From assembly GCA_012839475.1 (NCBI GenBank), contig DUNG01000041.1:1-46920 (forward strand): 46,920 bases of DNA, written 5' to 3'. The position numbers and the translations under genes are program-made. The notes under the pieces are model-generated. The model saw nothing but the letters and a program-made list of their open reading frames with translations, did no database searches and was not told the origin of the DNA. Shown in pieces: positions 1 to 8,717 of the stretch. Numbering within the stretch: the first letter of the stretch is position 1; every line of letters begins with the position of its first letter. The stretch comes from Petrimonas sp. (GTDB lineage: Bacteria > Bacteroidota > Bacteroidia > Bacteroidales > Dysgonomonadaceae).

Positions 1-5
1 CTTTA

Positions 6-41
6 AGCTAGAACTCCTCAGAAATTTCTACTTCGGTAGAT
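6..41 (+). repeat. Single CRISPR repeat in inverted orientation
   Basis: A full-length 36-bp copy of the array repeat lies 32 bp beyond the distal repeat (74-109) but on the opposite strand, so its handle reads on the plus strand and points into the array. The two copies form a perfect 36-bp inverted repeat around 42-73. If the array transcript runs through, it would fold into a long hairpin. If a plus-strand transcript exists, 42-73 would serve as its spacer. It may be the end of a second, convergent array cut by the window edge, a one-off inversion, or an assembly artefact at a contig end. Confidence 0.9.
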
Positions 42-73
42 TCAAAGGATAGTGTTGGTGTTGATATTGCTGG

Positions 74-1537
74 ATCTACCGAAGTAGAAATTTCTGAGGA
101 GTTCTAGCTAGAGATTGACCGCGGTCGAAGAATCCGCATCTACCGAAGTAGAAATTTCTGAGGAGTTCTAGCTCGCAACATGCCTAGACGGCATGTTAAA
201 ATCTACCGAAGTAGAAATTTCTGAGGAGTTCTAGCTCTCAGCGTTCGCCCGTGAACCTGAGCAATCTACCGAAGTAGAAATTTCTGAGGAGTTCTAGCTA
301 CGGACGAACAGCGGGTACAGCGCGAACTGATCTACCGAAGTAGAAATTTCTGAGGAGTTCTAGCTGTGATTAGGACGAACTATGGGCACGCTGATCTACC
401 GAAGTAGAAATTTCTGAGGAGTTCTAGCTAAATACGCGCTTAACCGCGAAATACATAATCTACCGAAGTAGAAATTTCTGAGGAGTTCTAGCTGCGAAAC
501 TGCGTCAGGCGGATTCAGCTTCATCTACCGAAGTAGAAATTTCTGAGGAGTTCTAGCTAGAGGCCGCACAGCTCACCATGACCGAGATCTACCGAAGTAG
601 AAATTTCTGAGGAGTTCTAGCTAGAAAGGAGAAACGATCATGGACAACATATCTACCGAAGTAGAAATTTCTGAGGAGTTCTAGCTAAGGAGGCGAGATA
701 ATGGACAAGCAAAGATCTACCGAAGTAGAAATTTCTGAGGAGTTCTAGCTAGGTTCGCAAGGGATGATTCGCGACTTCGAGCGGTGGTATCTACCGAAGT
801 AGAAATTTCTGAGGAGTTCTAGCTAAAAGCGTACAAAGAGTTGGCGCTCATTGATCTACCGAAGTAGAAATTTCTGAGGAGTTCTAGCTACGACAAAGCC
901 TATGCGATGGCTGTCTAATCTACCGAAGTAGAAATTTCTGAGGAGTTCTAGCTATCACGAAATGCTCGTCAATGAAATTGACGATCTACCGAAGTAGAAA
1001 TTTCTGAGGAGTTCTAGCTTGCCCTCGCTCGTTTTGTTGTACACCGTCATCTACCGAAGTAGAAATTTCTGAGGAGTTCTAGCTCGTATCAAGTGCATTG
1101 ACACCCGTTGCGTATCTACCGAAGTAGAAATTTCTGAGGAGTTCTAGCTGTCCGATCTGCTTGCGTTCCGCGATCTGCATCTACCGAAGTAGAAATTTCT
1201 GAGGAGTTCTAGCTACGTGTCGATGAACAACTTAATTTTTTCGATCTACCGAAGTAGAAATTTCTGAGGAGTTCTAGCTGCCCCATGTCTCGCCCACAGA
1301 CAGCCTAATCTACCGAAGTAGAAATTTCTGAGGAGTTCTAGCTGCATGACGCAGAGATTCGCGTCTTCGTACATCTACCGAAGTAGAAATTTCTGAGGAG
1401 TTCTAGCTGACCGAAGCCATTAAGAAGATGGCTGAAATCTACCGAAGTAGAAATTTCTGAGGAGTTCTAGCTACAGAAGAAACCTAGAGAGGAAGGTTGC
1501 GATCTACCGAAGTAGAAATTTCTGAGGAGTTCTAGCT
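74..1537 (-). CRISPR. Type V-A CRISPR array, 23 repeats / 22 spacers
   Basis: Twenty-three 36-bp repeats that look identical by eye alternate with 22 unique spacers. Read on the minus strand the repeat ends in AATTTCTACTTCGGTAGAT, the Cas12a crRNA handle: stem TCTAC/GTAGA with loop TTCG. On the plus strand repeats start at 74, 138, 201, 264, 330, 394, 458, 523, 587, 651, 715, 789, 854, 918, 984, 1049, 1114, 1179, 1244, 1308, 1373, 1437 and 1502. Spacers are 27-30 nt, except the one at 751-788, which is 38 nt. Handle orientation and cas gene direction both put the leader on the cas2 side, so the newest spacer is at 1473-1501 and the oldest at 110-137. Uniform repeats, even at the distal end, suggest a well-maintained array. 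Cas12a processes such transcripts itself, and no tracrRNA is needed. Confidence 0.98.
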
Positions 1538-1684
1538 CCTCATCTAACGCTCGCGCACAACATGAACACGTTAGGCGGGCAATATTCTGTGCAGAACATA
1601 TAAGTAGTGGCACTCATATTGAACTAAAACTCCTCGTTCTTACGTTGCTAGCTCTATTAAGACGGAGGTATGCAATTGACTTCC
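1538..1684 (-). other. CRISPR leader region
   Basis: These 147 bp lie between the cas2 stop codon and the leader-proximal repeat, and should contain the array promoter and the integration signals. I see no convincing -35/-10 pair. A 6-bp inverted repeat (CTAACG at 1544-1549, CGTTAG at 1569-1574) sits directly beside the first repeat, where leader-anchoring motifs or host-factor sites are often found. A short stretch at 1622-1636 (aactaaaactcctcg) resembles the 5' part of the repeat in plus orientation with two mismatches, and may be chance. Confidence 0.7.
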
Positions 1685-1957
1685 TCAGGTCACAACGATT
1701 ATATCATCATCTTCATGGGTAGCGTACCCGTAAGAAATGATTTTGTCCTCATTAACCTCGTAAATCATGATGCTGTCAGCGTCAGAAAATCGTTTGGCAA
1801 ATCGTGTCTCTATTTCTGCTTGGATAAGCCTGAGTACGCGCTCGCTGTTTCGGATTGCAAAGACGGAGTATTGAATTCTATAACCGTATTTCTTCAAATG
1901 CTTGGAAAACTGTGTGCGGAGCTTATCGTCGGAGATATCATAGCTGATCAGCATCAT
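1685..1957 (-). CDS. cas2: CRISPR-associated endoribonuclease/adaptation protein Cas2
   Basis: The 90-residue protein has the normal length for Cas2 and its N-terminal ferredoxin-like fold signature (MMLISYDISDDKLR), with the conserved aspartate of the first beta strand at D7. In adaptation, Cas2 forms the central dimer of the Cas1-Cas2 integrase that inserts prespacers at the leader end. The start is supported by an AGAGGTAAGG ribosome site just upstream. It is the last gene of the minus-strand cas operon, 58 bp after cas1 and 147 bp before the first repeat, as is usual in type V-A loci. Confidence 0.95.
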   Translation of the reverse strand: MMLISYDISDDKLRTQFSKHLKKYGYRIQYSVFAIRNSERVLRLIQAEIETRFAKRFSDADSIMIYEVNEDKIISYGYATHEDDDIIVVT

Positions 1958-2015
1958 GTTCCTTACCTCTATTCTTTGTATTTACTTGTCAAGTTCCAAT
2001 GTCGCATCCAGCGAA

Positions 2016-2984
2016 TTATGCAAAATTGAAATGCGGGTAGTCGGAGAGATCCTTGTTTCTCATAAAGGAGCGATAATATTGTTGTATGAACAGAAATATC
2101 TCGTCCTTATTCTTTATGAGAGGTTCCATCATCAAGGCTGTATATTTCGGTGAAGCTTTATACTTTATGCGGTAGCTATGGTTATCCACGAAGAAATCTT
2201 GCTCGTCGACTTGTCCAAGTCGGTACATCCTCCGTAGTTGATAATCAATAAGTGACCTGAAAGGTTCAACGAGATCACACACGAGAGATTTACGTTTGTA
2301 AAACTGTTGGTGGTATACACCTTTATAAAGGTCAAACCCGTAACAGTTAAGTAGTGCTTCAATAAAGCAGAATAGCAAGGTGTAGCCAAGATCGAGCAGA
2401 GAGTTTATCGTGTCTGCTTTGATGCGTGGTTGTCTGCCCTTCCAATTATATTCGCAAAAAATCTGTTGGAAGTATTCTTTGGACGCAACACCTTCAGTCC
2501 CTAGGATGGATTTTAGCGATGTCAGCTCGGGCAACTGAGATTGATAGGTCTTTAGCCGAGAGCAGACTTCTTTTGCGAGCGTCCCGCCTTGTCGTGCTTT
2601 GCGGATGGCGGCAATTTGGCTGTCAATTTTTTCTGAAACGATGTATTTTGCCAGATCGAACCCCTCATAAAAATATTGCTTTTCTCGCAACAGCGTATTG
2701 CCTTCTGCGCAATTCGCAAATACCTCATAAACGCGTAAACCACCTGTCATGAGGACGATTGAAAAGCCGAATCTCTTTGCTCTTTGGATAATGCCGGTTG
2801 TTAACGTAAACTGACCAACCAGAAAAACAGCAAAAAGCCTGAAACAAGTGGATTGGTGTTTTACTTTTCCCTCTTTGTCTTTCACGACGAGATTATCATT
2901 TAAGAAAGAGACTTTCTCACCTCGGTTCAGAAAAACGACAATTAACTTTTTGTACCGGAAATCAGGTGCAGAGAGCATGGTCAT
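2016..2984 (-). CDS. cas1: CRISPR integrase Cas1
   Basis: The 322-residue protein has the Cas1 organisation: a beta-rich N-terminal domain and an alpha-helical catalytic domain. The metal-binding residues are visible as E164 (GTEGVASKEYF), H225 (GVYHQQF) and D237 in CDLVEPFR, matching the E/H/D triad that catalyses spacer integration as a Cas1-Cas2 complex. Its ATG overlaps the cas4 stop by four bases (ATGA), so the two are translationally coupled. Cas4 and Cas1 work together in selecting PAM-bearing prespacers. No frameshift or loss of a key residue is seen, so adaptation is probably active. Confidence 0.97.
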   Translation of the reverse strand: MTMLSAPDFRYKKLIVVFLNRGEKVSFLNDNLVVKDKEGKVKHQSTCFRLFAVFLVGQFTLTTGIIQRAKRFGFSIVLMTGGLRVYEVFANCAEGNTLLREKQYFYEGFDLAKYIVSEKIDSQIAAIRKARQGGTLAKEVCSRLKTYQSQLPELTSLKSILGTEGVASKEYFQQIFCEYNWKGRQPRIKADTINSLLDLGYTLLFCFIEALLNCYGFDLYKGVYHQQFYKRKSLVCDLVEPFRSLIDYQLRRMYRLGQVDEQDFFVDNHSYRIKYKASPKYTALMMEPLIKNKDEIFLFIQQYYRSFMRNKDLSDYPHFNFA

Positions 2985-3535
2985 AGACTCCTATCACAGG
3001 CGTTTGTGTAGATACATCGCGCGCATTTGTCGGGGTTGGTCTGAACGAATCTAGACAGATCAAAAGACTCAAAATCCTGAATAGTATTCTCGAATTTTCC
3101 AAACATTTCTGGGTCGTCCTGAGGTAAAGGAACTGGATAGACCTTGTTATCTATTTGGCTGTATAAGCGCAGTGCATTGATCTCGTATCCTCGTTCGAGA
3201 AGACCATAGTACTGTCCATATAACTGATAGACGTATCCGTCAAAGACTTGCTTAATCTGACGTTTTCGTTCGGTTAATAAGCCCCTTTTTATATGGAAGA
3301 GGTCGATTTTTCCTAGCAGATTGTACTTGGAACTATAAACGTATATTCCTTGCAAAACATCAGAGCGTGTCGAGTAACTCTGATCGATAATTGTGCTATG
3401 GCTGGCCGTGCCGAGCGTTTGGTCGGTCGTCTGTATAGTGCGCGTGTCCGCGTCCCCGTACAGATCATGGAAGTATATGGAGGCAGGGCAGAAAATAAAA
3501 TCGTTTAACTGTGTGATTTTAATGTAACTTTCCAT
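2981..3535 (-). CDS. cas4: CRISPR adaptation exonuclease Cas4
   Basis: The 184-residue RecB-like nuclease has a [4Fe-4S] cluster. Four cysteines are in the expected places: C16 near the N-terminus (FIFCPASIYFHD) and C171, C174 and C180 at the C-terminus (CARCIYTNAC). The PD-(D/E)xK-like core is represented by D78 (GKIDLF) and E89 with K91 (TERKRQ), followed by the QLYGQYYGL helix. Cas4 trims prespacers and fixes their PAM orientation before Cas1-Cas2 integration. A GGAGG site precedes the start, and the gene follows cas12a after a 59-bp gap and overlaps cas1. Confidence 0.95.
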   Translation of the reverse strand: MESYIKITQLNDFIFCPASIYFHDLYGDADTRTIQTTDQTLGTASHSTIIDQSYSTRSDVLQGIYVYSSKYNLLGKIDLFHIKRGLLTERKRQIKQVFDGYVYQLYGQYYGLLERGYEINALRLYSQIDNKVYPVPLPQDDPEMFGKFENTIQDFESFDLSRFVQTNPDKCARCIYTNACDRSL

Positions 3536-3594
3536 GCCCTACCTCCAAATGATTCTGAATGAGGAATTCCATGATTAATTCATGAGGCGTGTAA

Positions 3595-6500
3595 TTACTC
3601 TTCTGCCATGAGATATTCGAACCATTCTCTATTTGAGAGCACGGCTCTTTTGTCGTTCTTGACTTTGTCGACGAGTAACAATCCTTTCCGAGCGATGTTA
3701 TAGGCGCCGTTGGCGTCAGCATTGATTGGGAGCGAGCTCTCATATGGCTGTTGTCCTGAGTCAAACGTATTATTCTCTTTATCGAGTGCGGGGGACACGA
3801 TGTCGTCTCGATCACTGTCAGAATTCCGAAGCTGTAAAACCAAACGGAAAGAACGATGTATTCTTGCCAGCAGATTTTCGTTTTCTAAGAGCAACGGGAG
3901 GAGATTCTGTTCGTTTTGATAAGCGATGCCATGTGCCTCGAGAGCTTTCTTGATCTCATCTGTTGTATCACGTTTCTCTATCATTCTCCGCTTAGGATTG
4001 AATGCCTTTCGTTCGCCGGAAACAAGGTTCCACGTACGCGACGGGACATTCTTTATCCTGCAGAAAACTCCGAAGTCGGCGTAGTTGAATCGGAAGATGA
4101 AACGATCAAACTCGTGGTCGTAGCGTATCTCTTGAAAATGCCCGTAGAAGCTGTTCAGATCCTTATTTCTAATGCGATTGAGGTAGAATAGGTTTGCAAA
4201 TCCCGTGACGGGATCGACGATGGAGGTATAGGACGCCGGAACATAGAAAACGATGCCGTTTTGGCTCCGCGTATCTTCGGGGCTGACAACACGACGTGCA
4301 AGTTGCCAAGGGCGCATAACGCCTCCAAGCTCGTTCGGTTCATACTCTTTGAAAGAAAGCGCGTTCAGTTTGTTAATCAAGGCAACTTCAAACTTTTGAT
4401 ACACTTGACGTTCTACTTTGAAGCGACCACGCTTAAAACCAACATTGAGATTTTCCATCACAACAATGGCATGGTATTTAATAATGAGACGCGACAGTTT
4501 GTAGATAACATGGCTCAGATAACCCTCTTTCAAGTCTTTGATACGGTCGATGCTTTGCCAATTTTGCCTTGCCTCTGCGCGTTCATCTTCGCGTTGTTTG
4601 AGCATTGATTGATAAGGGATCTGGCGCTCAACAGTTTCTCCTTTTAGCGTGGTTTGCTGAATAAGAGTATTTAATGATCCTTGTTTGACGATATCTCCTT
4701 GTAAATTAATGACGGAATAGTAAAGCAGGTTGCGTTCACCACGATCGATACCAATGATGTGTAAGTCGGAATCTTTTTTTATATATTCGTTCGCAAGGTT
4801 CTCAAAAGGTACGTTCGCGGAGGCTGTCCAGTTGAATTCCAATGGCACATGGAGGAAAAACTGATCTTCTGTGTACCGTTTGTCTTTGACAAGTTCGAAC
4901 GGTGCTTCACGGTAAACAAAACGTCCGTCAAGCAATCCTTGGGTGGCTTCTTCCGATAGCGTATACCCTTCGGGATGGCGTTCATTGATATGGTTATAGA
5001 TTTCGCAGTAGAGACCGGCGGGAATGACGTCACCATACTTGTCAAATCGATTGAGAAGGAAGGAGCCTTGCAGGTGAACGGTTGGTTGCTCTACTTGTTT
5101 CGGTCTGTAGAACAGTTCTGCTTGTCCATTCAATTTTATGGTGTTGTTTTGTAAGTTGTCATTGGAGAAAAGTGCCCGCCAGTACATCGTGTGCAAGTTC
5201 GGTTTTCCTGTTGAGTGTGGCGAAAAATCTTTGTTGTAGAGCTGGAACAAGTATAGATCGCCTCTGTCTACCATCGTGTGAATTAGATCGACCGAGACTT
5301 TCTCAAAGTAGATCGAGTAACTCGCGCGATCAACATCTGCATAGAACTGATTTACATCCTCATAATCCTCGGATTTGAGTAAATGGCTGTAATCGAAAGT
5401 GCTAGTTCCTTCGTAGCTTTCCAGATAAGATTTGCAGAAATCGATCCACGCAGTGACTGCTTGTCGGTAGCCTTCCTCATCTTCTGTCTGTTTCAGGTAA
5501 TCAGCCTGATAACGTTTCTTGTCATTGACAAGTTCCGTTTGCAATCTGTATATCTCGTATGGAATTGTAAAAGGCTTCACAAAGTTAGAGGCCCCAGGGT
5601 ATAGGGTATAACCAGTTGTTTCTCCTTGTTCGCCAAAATGCTTTTTCACATCTTTTCGTGCTGTCGAACACTTAGGGATCATTCGATATGCATCGGGAGA
5701 GAAGTGGTAGATCATGCGCTCGTAATACCCTTTGATATTCTTTGCTGTTTCATCGCAGTTTTCGTAGCTCAATACTCGATAGGCCTTCCTGTCCTTGAGA
5801 ATTCCTAGGTAGAACAGATCATCTTTTCTTAGAAGAACGCTGAAATTATCTGGCACCTTACTTTCAGACCAGCCATCGGCAAGTGTAGGTTTGTCGAAAT
5901 TCAGTCTGAATTTCTCTTTGGAGCTAGGTTTTCGACTTAAGTAGTTTCGCGCGAGGTTGTATAACAGAATAATGTTCGAAAGAGAGCCCATCACGCGATC
6001 ATATTCCGGATAGAATAGATCATCTTGGAGCTCTACCGCTTCGCAAGATAGTAAGTTCCAAATAGAATAGCGTGCCATGATCGCGTCAAGGTATTTTTTG
6101 ATTGTAGCGATTGCATCAGGATTTCCAATTAGTTTTGTTTCTGAAGATATAAGTTGTTCAATGCTACGGAACAGCACTGTAAGCTCACTCTTTAAATCCA
6201 TACCGGGGAATTCAAAAGGAAGAAAGATATCTTCAGTTGGTGTAGCTTCTTCCTCAAGATCGATTGATTGATCAAGGGCAAACTGCAATTCTTGGAGGCT
6301 AAAGTAAATGTCATTTTTTAATTTTGAGAGATCTCTCTCATCTTCGGATGCATCGATATAACGCTTAAATCGCTCATCTTCTCGATAGGGAGACTCGGTC
6401 GCCATTTGATAAAGCCCATCTCTCAAGCGGTTCCATGAAAGACTCGCTTCGTGCGACAATTCGTTAAGGTTTTTTGCATGGACTAAAATTGTTGAGGGGT

Positions 6501-7665
6501 CAACACCAGTCATTATGTTATACAACTGGTCGTTGATGTCTGCGATTGACAAGCCATCGATGTCCGGCTCAGAGAGAGTGTTGTTGAATTCTATTATGCG
6601 TGCTAAGAGATCCTCATCGCTTTCAATTTGCTCGAATAGAAAGGACGTTGATTCTGATATTGACAAGATATGTTTCTTAAGGCGAGTCATTTTGCCAACT
6701 GGTTTAATTTCGCTATTATCGGATACGTTTTTTAACGTCTGGTTTTTGAGATTGGCGAGTTCATTAAACCCTTGTACTTTTGTGTGATCGTCAGTGAAAA
6801 AACCTCCAATAACAGCATTGTGAAGGTCGACTCCTTTCTGTGTGAGAAGGCGGTTAATAGCAGGGATCGTAAACAGCGCATCCAGGCTCTCGTCATTAGC
6901 GATCAAGTTCTTTTTTTTCAACTCAGTTTCAAGCAGGTCCAAGGGTTCGGGGAAATCAAGTTTGTGTTGCTCATAGACCCAACGGTTGAAAAGAAAATCC
7001 GGAACAATCTCATGGACAATGCGGTAAGCAAAGCCTGTGGCAATATCTTCATCTGTAAAGATGTTTTTGCGGGCTTGCCAGAAATTTGTGAGACGTGAAG
7101 TAAACTTTTGATACGAATCGAGAGCATCCTTATACGCATCAAAAAGTTCATCAGAGATGCGACCATCCGGTTTATTTTTCAGGTGTTCAAGGTAGGCTGG
7201 AAGTGTTTCAGTAACAAAGCGCGCCTTGAAAAGATCATCATAGTATTTTTTGTTAACGGAAGCCGTGTTTTTAGGCAGAGGAGTTCCATTGCGATCGACT
7301 TGACCCGATAGTCGCTTCAGGAGTAGCGTGCGATATTTCTTCTGCTCATCTCTAACTAAGCTAGCTATTCTTTGGTTTTCTCTTGGATCAGTGTTGTTCC
7401 TAGCGAGCAGGAGAGCTTCTACTAAAGGTGACCAGTCAAACAGAAGATTCGATAGTTGATCCGTCATGAACTCCCGATAAAACCGATCCGCAAGTTCTTT
7501 TAGCAAGGGGTACATCTCGCTTCTTTTCCTGTCAGCCTCAATAATATTTCTGCATTTAACGAACTCAGTTGTTCTGCCGACGGGAATTAGTCTGAAACGA
7601 AGGGTCTTTTGAACAGGTGTTAAACACTCAAAGTTTGTAAAGGGCTTATGCTTTTTGATAGTCAT
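3595..7665 (-). CDS. cas12a: Type V-A CRISPR effector nuclease Cas12a (Cpf1)
   Basis: The 1356-residue protein is within the normal Cas12a range. The three RuvC motifs are intact: D974 in IGIDRGERNL, E1071 in VVMENLN and D1317 in NADANGAYN. R1210 (NVPSRTWN) fits the Nuc-domain arginine. K665 in MIPKCST aligns with the PAM-reading lysine of characterised Cas12a proteins, consistent with a TTTV PAM. The crRNA-processing region (KPNLHTMYW, then H864 in PTVHLQG and the KDKRYTED segment) is present. It should therefore process its own pre-crRNA and make staggered double-strand DNA breaks. The start codon is preceded by GAAAGGAATTAATC. It is the first gene of the cas operon, with a ~140-nt leader from the promoter at 7812-7840. 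The lower GC content suggests horizontal acquisition. Confidence 0.98.
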   Translation of the reverse strand: MTIKKHKPFTNFECLTPVQKTLRFRLIPVGRTTEFVKCRNIIEADRKRSEMYPLLKELADRFYREFMTDQLSNLLFDWSPLVEALLLARNNTDPRENQRIASLVRDEQKKYRTLLLKRLSGQVDRNGTPLPKNTASVNKKYYDDLFKARFVTETLPAYLEHLKNKPDGRISDELFDAYKDALDSYQKFTSRLTNFWQARKNIFTDEDIATGFAYRIVHEIVPDFLFNRWVYEQHKLDFPEPLDLLETELKKKNLIANDESLDALFTIPAINRLLTQKGVDLHNAVIGGFFTDDHTKVQGFNELANLKNQTLKNVSDNSEIKPVGKMTRLKKHILSISESTSFLFEQIESDEDLLARIIEFNNTLSEPDIDGLSIADINDQLYNIMTGVDPSTILVHAKNLNELSHEASLSWNRLRDGLYQMATESPYREDERFKRYIDASEDERDLSKLKNDIYFSLQELQFALDQSIDLEEEATPTEDIFLPFEFPGMDLKSELTVLFRSIEQLISSETKLIGNPDAIATIKKYLDAIMARYSIWNLLSCEAVELQDDLFYPEYDRVMGSLSNIILLYNLARNYLSRKPSSKEKFRLNFDKPTLADGWSESKVPDNFSVLLRKDDLFYLGILKDRKAYRVLSYENCDETAKNIKGYYERMIYHFSPDAYRMIPKCSTARKDVKKHFGEQGETTGYTLYPGASNFVKPFTIPYEIYRLQTELVNDKKRYQADYLKQTEDEEGYRQAVTAWIDFCKSYLESYEGTSTFDYSHLLKSEDYEDVNQFYADVDRASYSIYFEKVSVDLIHTMVDRGDLYLFQLYNKDFSPHSTGKPNLHTMYWRALFSNDNLQNNTIKLNGQAELFYRPKQVEQPTVHLQGSFLLNRFDKYGDVIPAGLYCEIYNHINERHPEGYTLSEEATQGLLDGRFVYREAPFELVKDKRYTEDQFFLHVPLEFNWTASANVPFENLANEYIKKDSDLHIIGIDRGERNLLYYSVINLQGDIVKQGSLNTLIQQTTLKGETVERQIPYQSMLKQREDERAEARQNWQSIDRIKDLKEGYLSHVIYKLSRLIIKYHAIVVMENLNVGFKRGRFKVERQVYQKFEVALINKLNALSFKEYEPNELGGVMRPWQLARRVVSPEDTRSQNGIVFYVPASYTSIVDPVTGFANLFYLNRIRNKDLNSFYGHFQEIRYDHEFDRFIFRFNYADFGVFCRIKNVPSRTWNLVSGERKAFNPKRRMIEKRDTTDEIKKALEAHGIAYQNEQNLLPLLLENENLLARIHRSFRLVLQLRNSDSDRDDIVSPALDKENNTFDSGQQPYESSLPINADANGAYNIARKGLLLVDKVKNDKRAVLSNREWFEYLMAEE

Positions 7666-7811
7666 GATTAATTCCTTTCTACTTTCATTTTTGGATAACG
7701 AGCTATTCTCGTAGGTGTATACAGTCTTTTAATGCGCTTTTCATTAATACGGCCGATCTTTTCTTGCTTATCCTTGGGAAAAGCCCAAGAAAGAGGATCT
7801 GTTTGGTCGTA

Positions 7812-7840
7812 ATCATAAAGTATAGTATTTGTTTTGTCAA
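7812..7840 (-). promoter_or_regulatory. cas12a operon promoter (TTGACA-17-TATGAT)
   Basis: On the minus strand a perfect -35 hexamer TTGACA (7840-7835) is separated by exactly 17 bp from TATGAT (7817-7812). This is the only strong sigma-A-type promoter seen upstream of cas12a and predicts transcription start near 7805. The crRNA-like seed target at 7844-7854 ends three bases upstream of the -35 hexamer, so a bound Cas12a would compete with RNA polymerase. Confidence 0.8.
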
Positions 7841-7843
7841 CTA

Positions 7844-7858
7844 ACCATTTTCTATAAA
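7844..7858 (-). promoter_or_regulatory. PAM plus seed target of the crRNA-like RNA (operator for Cas12a)
   Basis: On the minus strand TTTA (7858-7855), a canonical Cas12a PAM, is followed immediately by TAGAAAATGGT (7854-7844). The latter is identical to the first 11 guide bases of the crRNA-like gene at 7880-7929. Matching stops after base 11, which is long enough for Cas12a R-loop seeding and binding but shorter than the pairing normally needed for cleavage. The site abuts the cas12a -35 box. It is read here as a repression site; this is inference. Confidence 0.75.
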
Positions 7859-7879
7859 ATATTAGGTGGAAGGAGTAGC

Positions 7880-7929
7880 CGAAAAATTGGCCACACCATT
7901 TTCTAATCTACATGGGGAAAGTAGAAATT
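7880..7929 (-). ncRNA. crRNA-like regulatory RNA with diverged Cas12a handle (CreR-like)
   Basis: On the minus strand AATTTCTAC (7929-7921), a 9-nt loop TTTCCCCAT and GTAGAT (7911-7906) rebuild the Cas12a handle with the same 5-bp stem TCTAC/GTAGA as the array repeat but a longer loop. The guide-like segment starts at 7905 with TAGAAAATGGT, then GTGGCCAATTTTTCGGC. Its first 11 bases match the PAM-adjacent site at 7854-7844 in exact register. An extended -10 box lies so that transcription would begin at or next to 7929, the normal 5' end of a mature Cas12a crRNA. The 3' end is uncertain; AAAATGG and CCAATTTTT could form a weak hairpin with a T-run near 7883. Guides of this kind that repress cas genes are known from other CRISPR types; its role here is inferred. 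Confidence 0.78.
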
Positions 7930-7935
7930 TGATTT

Positions 7936-7944
7936 ATTTTATCA
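7936..7944 (-). promoter_or_regulatory. Extended -10 promoter of the crRNA-like RNA
   Basis: TGATAAAAT (7944-7936, minus strand) fits the extended -10 pattern TGnTATAAT with one mismatch in the hexamer. No good -35 is seen, which extended -10 promoters tolerate. The predicted start, about seven bases downstream, falls at 7929, the first base of the handle. Confidence 0.6.
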
Positions 7945-8065
7945 TGATAGGAGTGTGATTGATATAGGGACCGAATTTTTATGTGTAACAGAGAGATGTT
8001 ATGTTTTTTCGTGCATAGTTATTTTGAAGATGAAATCTGACGAAGATCGTCTTGTACAACTGCAA

Positions 8066-8088
8066 GGAGGCAACTTGTTGTTGCCTCC
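8066..8088 (-). terminator. Hairpin downstream of sodA
   Basis: GGAGGCAAC (8066-8074) and GTTGCCTCC (8080-8088) form a perfect 9-bp stem with a 5-nt loop, 27 bases beyond the superoxide dismutase stop codon. The following bases on the minus strand are only moderately T-rich. It probably ends sodA transcription and insulates the CRISPR locus. Confidence 0.6.
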
Positions 8089-8114
8089 CTCAGGAAGAAA
8101 TATCAATTCTAGTG

Positions 8115-8717
8115 TTATTTCGCCTTCGCGTAACGTGTTGCGACGACGTCCCAGTTGACGAGACCCCACCATTCTTTCAGATAGTCGGCGCGTCTGTTCT
8201 GGTATTTCAGGTAGTAGGCGTGCTCCCAGACATCGTTCACGAGAAGAGGCGTCATACCCTTGCTGACCGGTGAATCTTGATTCGAGGATTGGACGATTTT
8301 CAGTTCGCCCTTGTCCATGACGAGCCATGCCCAACCGCTGCCGAACTGACCGGCGCCCGCTTTCTCAAACGCTTCTTTAAACTTCTCAAAACTGCCGAAT
8401 ACGTCGTCCATGGCTTTCGCGAGTTCGCCTTGCGGTTCTTTTGCGCCGCCCGGCGTCATCGTTTCCCAGTAGACTAGGTGGTTGTAATGCCCGCCGCCAT
8501 GGTTGATGACGGCTTGGCGTCTTTCCTCGGGGACCTGGCCTAAATCTTTAAGCAGTTCCTCAATTGTCTGTTCTTTCAGATTGAGTCCCTCGATCGCCTT
8601 ATTGAGATTGTTGACGTAAGTCTGGTGGTGTTTGCCGTGGTGCACTTCGACTGTTTTTTGGTCGATGACCGGCTCCAACGCGTCGTACGGATATTGCAAA
8701 GCATCTAATTTATACAT
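8115..8717 (-). CDS. sodA: Superoxide dismutase, Fe/Mn family
   Basis: The 200-residue protein has the normal length for cytosolic Fe/Mn superoxide dismutase, which converts superoxide to hydrogen peroxide and oxygen. Metal ligands are visible: the N-terminal histidine in EVHHGKHHQTYVNNL, the histidine before YNHLVYW, and the C-terminal DVWEHAYYLKYQN with its aspartate and histidine. GSGWAWLV is the usual family segment. No signal peptide is present. An AAGGAGG site precedes the start. With rubrerythrin and a Fur/PerR-type regulator nearby, it forms part of an oxygen-defence neighbourhood. Fe versus Mn preference cannot be told from the sequence alone. Confidence 0.95.
   Translation of the reverse strand: MYKLDALQYPYDALEPVIDQKTVEVHHGKHHQTYVNNLNKAIEGLNLKEQTIEELLKDLGQVPEERRQAVINHGGGHYNHLVYWETMTPGGAKEPQGELAKAMDDVFGSFEKFKEAFEKAGAGQFGSGWAWLVMDKGELKIVQSSNQDSPVSKGMTPLLVNDVWEHAYYLKYQNRRADYLKEWWGLVNWDVVATRYAKAK

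Follow-up and report, generated by a model that had tools for sequence, protein, structure and literature searches.

Cas-regulating RNAs (CreRs), reportedly described by Liu et al. 2023 in Cell Host Microbe (PMID 37659410), are the closest known counterparts of the element analyzed here, a CRISPR RNA (crRNA)-like gene upstream of cas12a in the 46,920-nt contig DUNG01000041.1 of the Petrimonas sp. assembly GCA_012839475.1 (this whole stretch of DNA is referred to as the window). Cas9 systems have naturally occurring RNAs, the small CRISPR-Cas-associated RNA (scaRNA) and the long-form trans-activating crRNA (tracrRNA), whose partial pairing turns a cutting effector into a repressor of genes. According to three reviews, CreRs mediate autorepression in types I-B, I-E and V-A via partial complementarity to promoters (PMC13131331), a CreR with Cas12a has been described in type V-A (PMC12737573), and CreR is mentioned in passing (PMC12948488). 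Because type V-A CreRs appear in reviews, the kind is already known, and type V-A autorepression by CreRs, which those reviews place in print, is not itself a new idea. The literature search, whose reach did not extend to Liu et al. 2023, turned up no research paper on a Cas12a CreR.

As described for CreRs, a crRNA-like RNA is predicted here to lead the effector, through a partial match, to its own cas operon's promoter. The CreR features found at the sequence level were a repeat-derived handle with a guide, coding within the locus, a partial match to the promoter, a protospacer-adjacent motif (PAM) beside the match and a guide–target match kept in relatives. The window element may differ from published CreRs in its 9-nt handle loop and in a 3′ hairpin where the matched stretch ends. 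Like scaRNA or long-form tracrRNA, it would turn a cutting effector into a repressor through partial pairing, but those systems are built on Cas9 and tracrRNA, whereas here Cas12a and a single crRNA-like handle would be used. In CreTA, CreA is likewise a crRNA-like RNA whose partial pairing brings the effector to a promoter; CreA, however, silences a toxin gene, whereas the promoter targeted here lies ahead of cas12a and no gene there looked convincingly like a toxin. Judged from its sequence, the element is very probably a CreR-type gene, that is, a gene for a crRNA-like RNA by which Cas12a would repress its own promoter, binding without cutting.

The crRNA-like gene and its match at the cas12a promoter

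The gene was found on the minus strand, inside the CRISPR-cas locus, between a same-strand superoxide dismutase-like gene (8115–8717) and cas12a. It contains a diverged, lone Cas12a repeat handle (7906–7929), 241–264 nt upstream of the cas12a start codon, which is composed of AATTTCTAC (7929–7921), the loop TTTCCCCAT (7920–7912) and GTAGAT (7911–7906). The stem of this handle has 5 bp (TCTAC/GTAGA), and its loop has 9 nt, against 4 nt in the array repeat. An extended −10 box, TGATAAAAT (7936–7944, minus strand), is the putative promoter of the gene. Directly 3′ of the handle lies an 11-nt guide, or seed, TAGAAAATGGT (7895–7905, minus strand). When the first 40 guide bases were folded, a 3′ hairpin of the predicted RNA was obtained, GGTGTGGCC-AATTTTTC-GGCTACTCC (7872–7897, minus strand), which overlaps the last 3 nt of the seed; the predicted RNA consists of two hairpins with most of the seed in between. 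Beyond positions 1–1537 of the window, no exact handle was found besides the lone one. An ordinary CRISPR mini-array was rejected as a description, given a single handle rather than at least two repeats flanking a spacer, and a search of the window with Rfam gave no match at the gathering score.

The guide shows an 11-nt partial match to the promoter region of its own cas operon, with an adjoining PAM. The target, a second copy of the seed (7844–7854, minus strand), directly follows TTTA (7855–7858, minus strand), a Cas12a-type PAM; TTTV, the motif familiar from the Cas12a family, is taken by us to be the PAM of this Cas12a as well. Three bases past the copy, at 7840, begins the TTGACA of the cas12a promoter TTGACA-17-TATGAT (7812–7840, minus strand); counted from the first matched base of the target, the −35 box begins 14 nt further on. 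As shown by a promoter scan of 7600–8150, this promoter scores 11/12; two promoter-like sites were found in that interval in all, and the average for shuffles was 1.8. In front of the guide's own DNA copy stands AGAT, which does not fit TTTN; self-targeting of the gene is therefore not expected.

The handle pattern TTTCTAC-N3-12-GTAGAT occurred 26 times in the 3.39-Mb assembly, namely as 23 array repeats, an inverted copy at the contig edge, the lone handle and one stretch on contig C55. Read backwards as a control, the pattern occurred 4 times, so the bare handle pattern is not rare across 3.39 Mb, and the handle-like match on C55 was judged to be a chance match because the control gave four in the same genome. 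Shuffles of the window yielded 0.00 handle patterns. The assembly contains just two copies of the 11-mer itself, the guide and the target, lying 51 nt apart; as its reversed form occurs 4 times, the count is unremarkable by itself and it is the placement that is informative. When TTTV plus the first 10 guide bases was sought with at most two mismatches, one window site was found, an exact one, with 0.63 in shuffles. In 2000 dinucleotide shuffles of the upstream region, TTTN-flanked prefix matches never exceeded 9 nt, against 11 nt in the window (p = 0.0005, the lowest value attainable). A first-pass annotation of the sequence had already placed a second, diverged Cas12a handle outside the array, an extended −10 box at 7944–7936, and a recurrence of the 11 post-handle bases at 7854–7844 behind TTTA, all of which direct reading upheld; the promoter that it placed three bases past the copy was recovered by the promoter scan.

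Recurrence in other Cas12a loci and co-variation of guide and target

The closest relative is L033, a Clostridiaceae metagenome-assembled genome (MAG) whose Cas12a is 56% identical to that of the window. The parts follow one another there as an extended −10 box (TGATAGAAT, at the place equivalent to the window's box), a wide-loop handle (again with a 9-nt loop), the guide TAAAAGAAGGT, a hairpin, TTTA, the target and TTGACA-17-TATGAT, a promoter kept in both loci. The guide differs from that of the window at three positions, and the target carries the identical changes. In the stretch from promoter to cas12a, the leaders of the two loci resemble each other far less than their guides and targets do. 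Guide and target thus changed together while the leader diverged, which is the pattern that selection on pairing would leave. The 3′ hairpin is unusually stable in both loci (p = 0.010 in the window, 0.003 in L033); between them, one of its pairs was changed on both sides and kept, and two were changed on one side.

For the wider survey, 98 loci were assembled: the best 80 of 408 from an alignment query of genome_contigs, 17 from scans of the order and the phylum, and the window. Fragments (L021, L024, L028, L030, L031), the window itself (L009, L022) and three duplicates (L012, L013 and L016) were left out of the counting; L115 repeats L034, and L117 repeats L033. Of the 95 distinct loci, 94 have an upstream sequence of 120 nt or more. 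The upstream scan and the scan of 919 handles predate the full recognition of duplicates; none of the 11 elements lies in a duplicate. This Cas12a was found in 1 of the 101 genomes of the assembly's family, the window's own, and matches to the Cas12a family were found in 17 of 393 genomes of the order and 2 of 395 of the phylum, with the window's own counted both times. Scanned with a single protein, genome_contigs yielded no relative. Among plasmids one record was matched, at 23% identity, and among phages none; in viral_contigs there was no exact wide-loop handle, and 101 stretches fitted the pattern but no Cas12a relative was present.

Within up to 1200 nt upstream of cas12a, handles were observed in 10 loci. 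L064 was set aside from the lone-handle set, its three handles just upstream of cas12a being array repeats. A lone upstream handle was found in 9 of the 95 distinct loci (the window, L033, L034, L063, L071, L072, L075, L092 and L102), and in all nine the guide that follows the handle matches, in exact register, a site preceded by a PAM, which is TTTA in eight and TTTG in L102. The exact match measures 11 nt in the window, L033, L075 and L092, 9 nt in L034, 8 nt in L063 and L102, 7 nt in L071 and 4 nt in L072; shuffle p values range from 0.0005 to 0.012, except for 0.18 in L072. When the guide start was shifted by +1 to +15 or by −2 to −8, 0–2 of the nine loci passed. In L102 (4959–5986), the lone handle and the TTTG-flanked 8-nt target precede an open reading frame of 211 aa of unknown role, which is followed by cas12a.

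A wider scan covered 919 handles from all loci (two duplicate loci retained), with targets limited to 450 nt upstream. Matches of at least 9 nt were obtained for 7 of 919 handles at the true register versus 1 of 3676 at four shifted registers, and two elements beyond the cas genes were added. In L051 (a Lentisphaeraceae type V-A locus, from 12651), the last array unit has a TTTA-flanked 12-nt match upstream of cas12a, the longest exact match among the 11 loci, which begins between the boxes and extends into the −10 of TTGACA-18-TATTAT. In L083, a handle about 490 nt beyond the array, with a loop unlike the array's, has a 9-nt match behind TTTG. The −35 box starts 14 nt from the seed start in the window, L063 and L072, 16 nt in L033 and 19 nt in L034, and in L075 and L051 the target is inside the promoter; in 7 of the 11 loci a TTGACA/TTGACG promoter stands no more than about 30 nt from the target. 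Weak matches from a looser stem scan of 700 nt upstream (8 nt in L051, 7 nt in L032) were not counted, nor were 7–8-nt matches from handles beyond cas12a in L048, L087 and L106, because shifted registers give that length too. In L116, a Cas12a locus from the order of L033 that stands outside the 95, no exact handle was found in about 570 nt upstream.

With regard to the 3′ ends, six of the other seven upstream guides gave no signal of 3′ structure and L092 gave a marginal one (0.047). A run of at least five T in the first 27 nt was found in 6 of 11 guides, versus 61 of 812 array spacers and 567 of 3987 neighbouring stretches, with 2.2 guides expected from shuffles. In five of the 11 guides (the window, L033, L063, L072 and L083), a run of 5–7 T begins at guide position 18–20. 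It is suggestive only, but such a run perhaps marks a transcript end at crRNA length.

The first-pass annotation had named disappearance of the guide–target match from every close relative that keeps both sites as an outcome that would speak against its idea of a guide directing Cas12a to its own promoter. The match was found to be retained: guide and target co-vary in L033, and nine of nine loci are in register. The idea gains support from guide, PAM, register and promoter position, all of which hold, and from the same arrangement, with different guide sequences, in other Cas12a loci; it is nevertheless a prediction from DNA.

Predicted autorepression and alternative explanations

If the element acts as predicted, a short RNA would start near 7929 and comprise the Cas12a handle, the 11-nt guide and the 3′ hairpin, which may define or protect the 3′ end of the RNA. 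Cas12a loaded with this RNA would pair with the template strand at 7854–7844, beside the TTTA PAM, and the bound protein would cover the −35 box, 14 nt further on from the first base of the target. The cas12a gene would then be transcribed less, and so presumably would the cas4-cas1-cas2 genes that follow it. The promoter DNA would be left uncut by the complex because pairing stops at 11 nt; cutting needs pairing longer than the 12-nt maximum match found. Repression would be relieved by array crRNAs, or by Cas12a-binding inhibitors, taking the protein away. A more specific proposal, which we put forward only tentatively and consider rather doubtful, is that this branch of Cas12a has a purpose-built guide: the wide-loop handle would load less well than array crRNAs, the hairpin would stop pairing at 11 nt, and Cas12a would be held uncutting on its own promoter and leave when array crRNAs compete, with type V-A loci siting such guides in at least three places: ahead of cas12a, in the final unit of the array or past the array.

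Several observations weigh against autorepression by a dedicated guide. The element is present in only 11 of the 94 distinct loci with sufficient upstream sequence, and the 3′ hairpin together with the 9-nt loop in two, the window and L033; a general 3′ structure was not detected when the 11 guides were compared with 812 array spacers (p = 0.28 for 24 nt, 0.47 for 27 nt). The handle promoter has no recognisable −35 and was not listed in the promoter scan of 7600–8150. The match in L071 has just 7 nt (p = 0.012), that in L072 has 4 nt exact or 9 of 10 with one mismatch (p = 0.18), and the handles of L064 gave no guide-type match. When the guide start was shifted by −1, five of the nine loci still passed, via the 9-of-10 rule. 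By the sigma-70 consensus, the target promoter is weak in L071, L092, L083 and L102, and the L102 target, ahead of another gene, is separated from the downstream cas12a by about 975 nt.

The guide could serve Cas12a in some other way, either as a low-affinity holding RNA for stability or silence or as an activator of transcription, with promoter repression secondary. The enlarged loop and 3′ hairpin of the window and L033 could indeed serve RNA stability or affinity, and we infer the sign of the effect on transcription. However, the target is near a promoter in seven of the 11 loci and the match was kept by co-variation in the one close pair; DNA targeting is therefore indicated, and a different role of this kind is quite unlikely. 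That the handle is a functionless stray repeat, left by a lost array or by off-target integration, with a flank that resembles a promoter by chance, is very unlikely. Its scarcity among the loci and the divergence of its loop from that of the array repeat (9 versus 4 nt) agree with such a remnant, but the exact register in nine of nine loci, the guide–target co-variation with L033 and the shuffle result (p = 0.0005) do not. A CreA-like antitoxin guide silencing a toxin between the promoter and cas12a is extremely unlikely: about 150 nt separate the two, guide, target and promoter all lie within a 79-codon stop-to-stop frame (7668–7907, minus strand), and a 45-codon frame (7703–7840) contains a 13-codon ATG mini-frame, but the 79-codon frame offers no usual start before the final six codons, the L033 leader, read by hand, has a stop in the corresponding frame, and inspection of the reading frames revealed nothing in the interval beyond frames that lack a usable start or have about 13 codons, although a mini-frame or an RNA toxin might be coded there. 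CreR-type autorepression of cas12a is preferred to these alternatives.

Locus surroundings and biological meaning

The locus carries a complete type V-A set on the minus strand, with cas12a (3595–7665, 1356 aa; TIGR04330, 924.6 bits, cut-off 300), type V cas4 (2981–3535), type V cas1 (2016–2984) and cas2 (1685–1957), followed by a CRISPR array (74–1537) of 23 repeats of 36 nt with the loop TTCG. Cas12a aligns near full length with the solved Cas12a proteins 8kgf and 8sfi. The NCBIfam matches of the superoxide dismutase-like gene were under cut-off. An inverted array repeat at the contig edge (6–41, plus strand) faces the array across 32 nt and is either an assembly-graph artefact or a real inverted end. 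The guanine-plus-cytosine content is 40–44% in the cas and array region (1–8000) and 45–56% in the rest of the contig, as after horizontal gain.

The contig encodes a SCIFF maturase that scores above the cut-off; among the 39 genomes of the genus this holds for 1, the window's own, and 34 others had weaker matches only. Among the best 80 of 408 loci, the nearest Cas12a relatives are from Clostridiaceae MAGs. Because of the SCIFF maturase and these relatives, the contig is probably clostridial and misbinned into a Bacteroidales assembly, an origin that would also fit the promoter type.

The 9-nt handle loop and stable 3′ hairpin common to the window and L033 are possibly distinctive within the known kind. 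Eleven Cas12a loci with an in-register guide, a PAM and a promoter target, one pair of them co-varying, provide material on how a cutting effector may be held as a repressor. If the hairpin and the wide loop matter, they would represent a naturally occurring blueprint for Cas12a-based repression that needs no dead enzyme.
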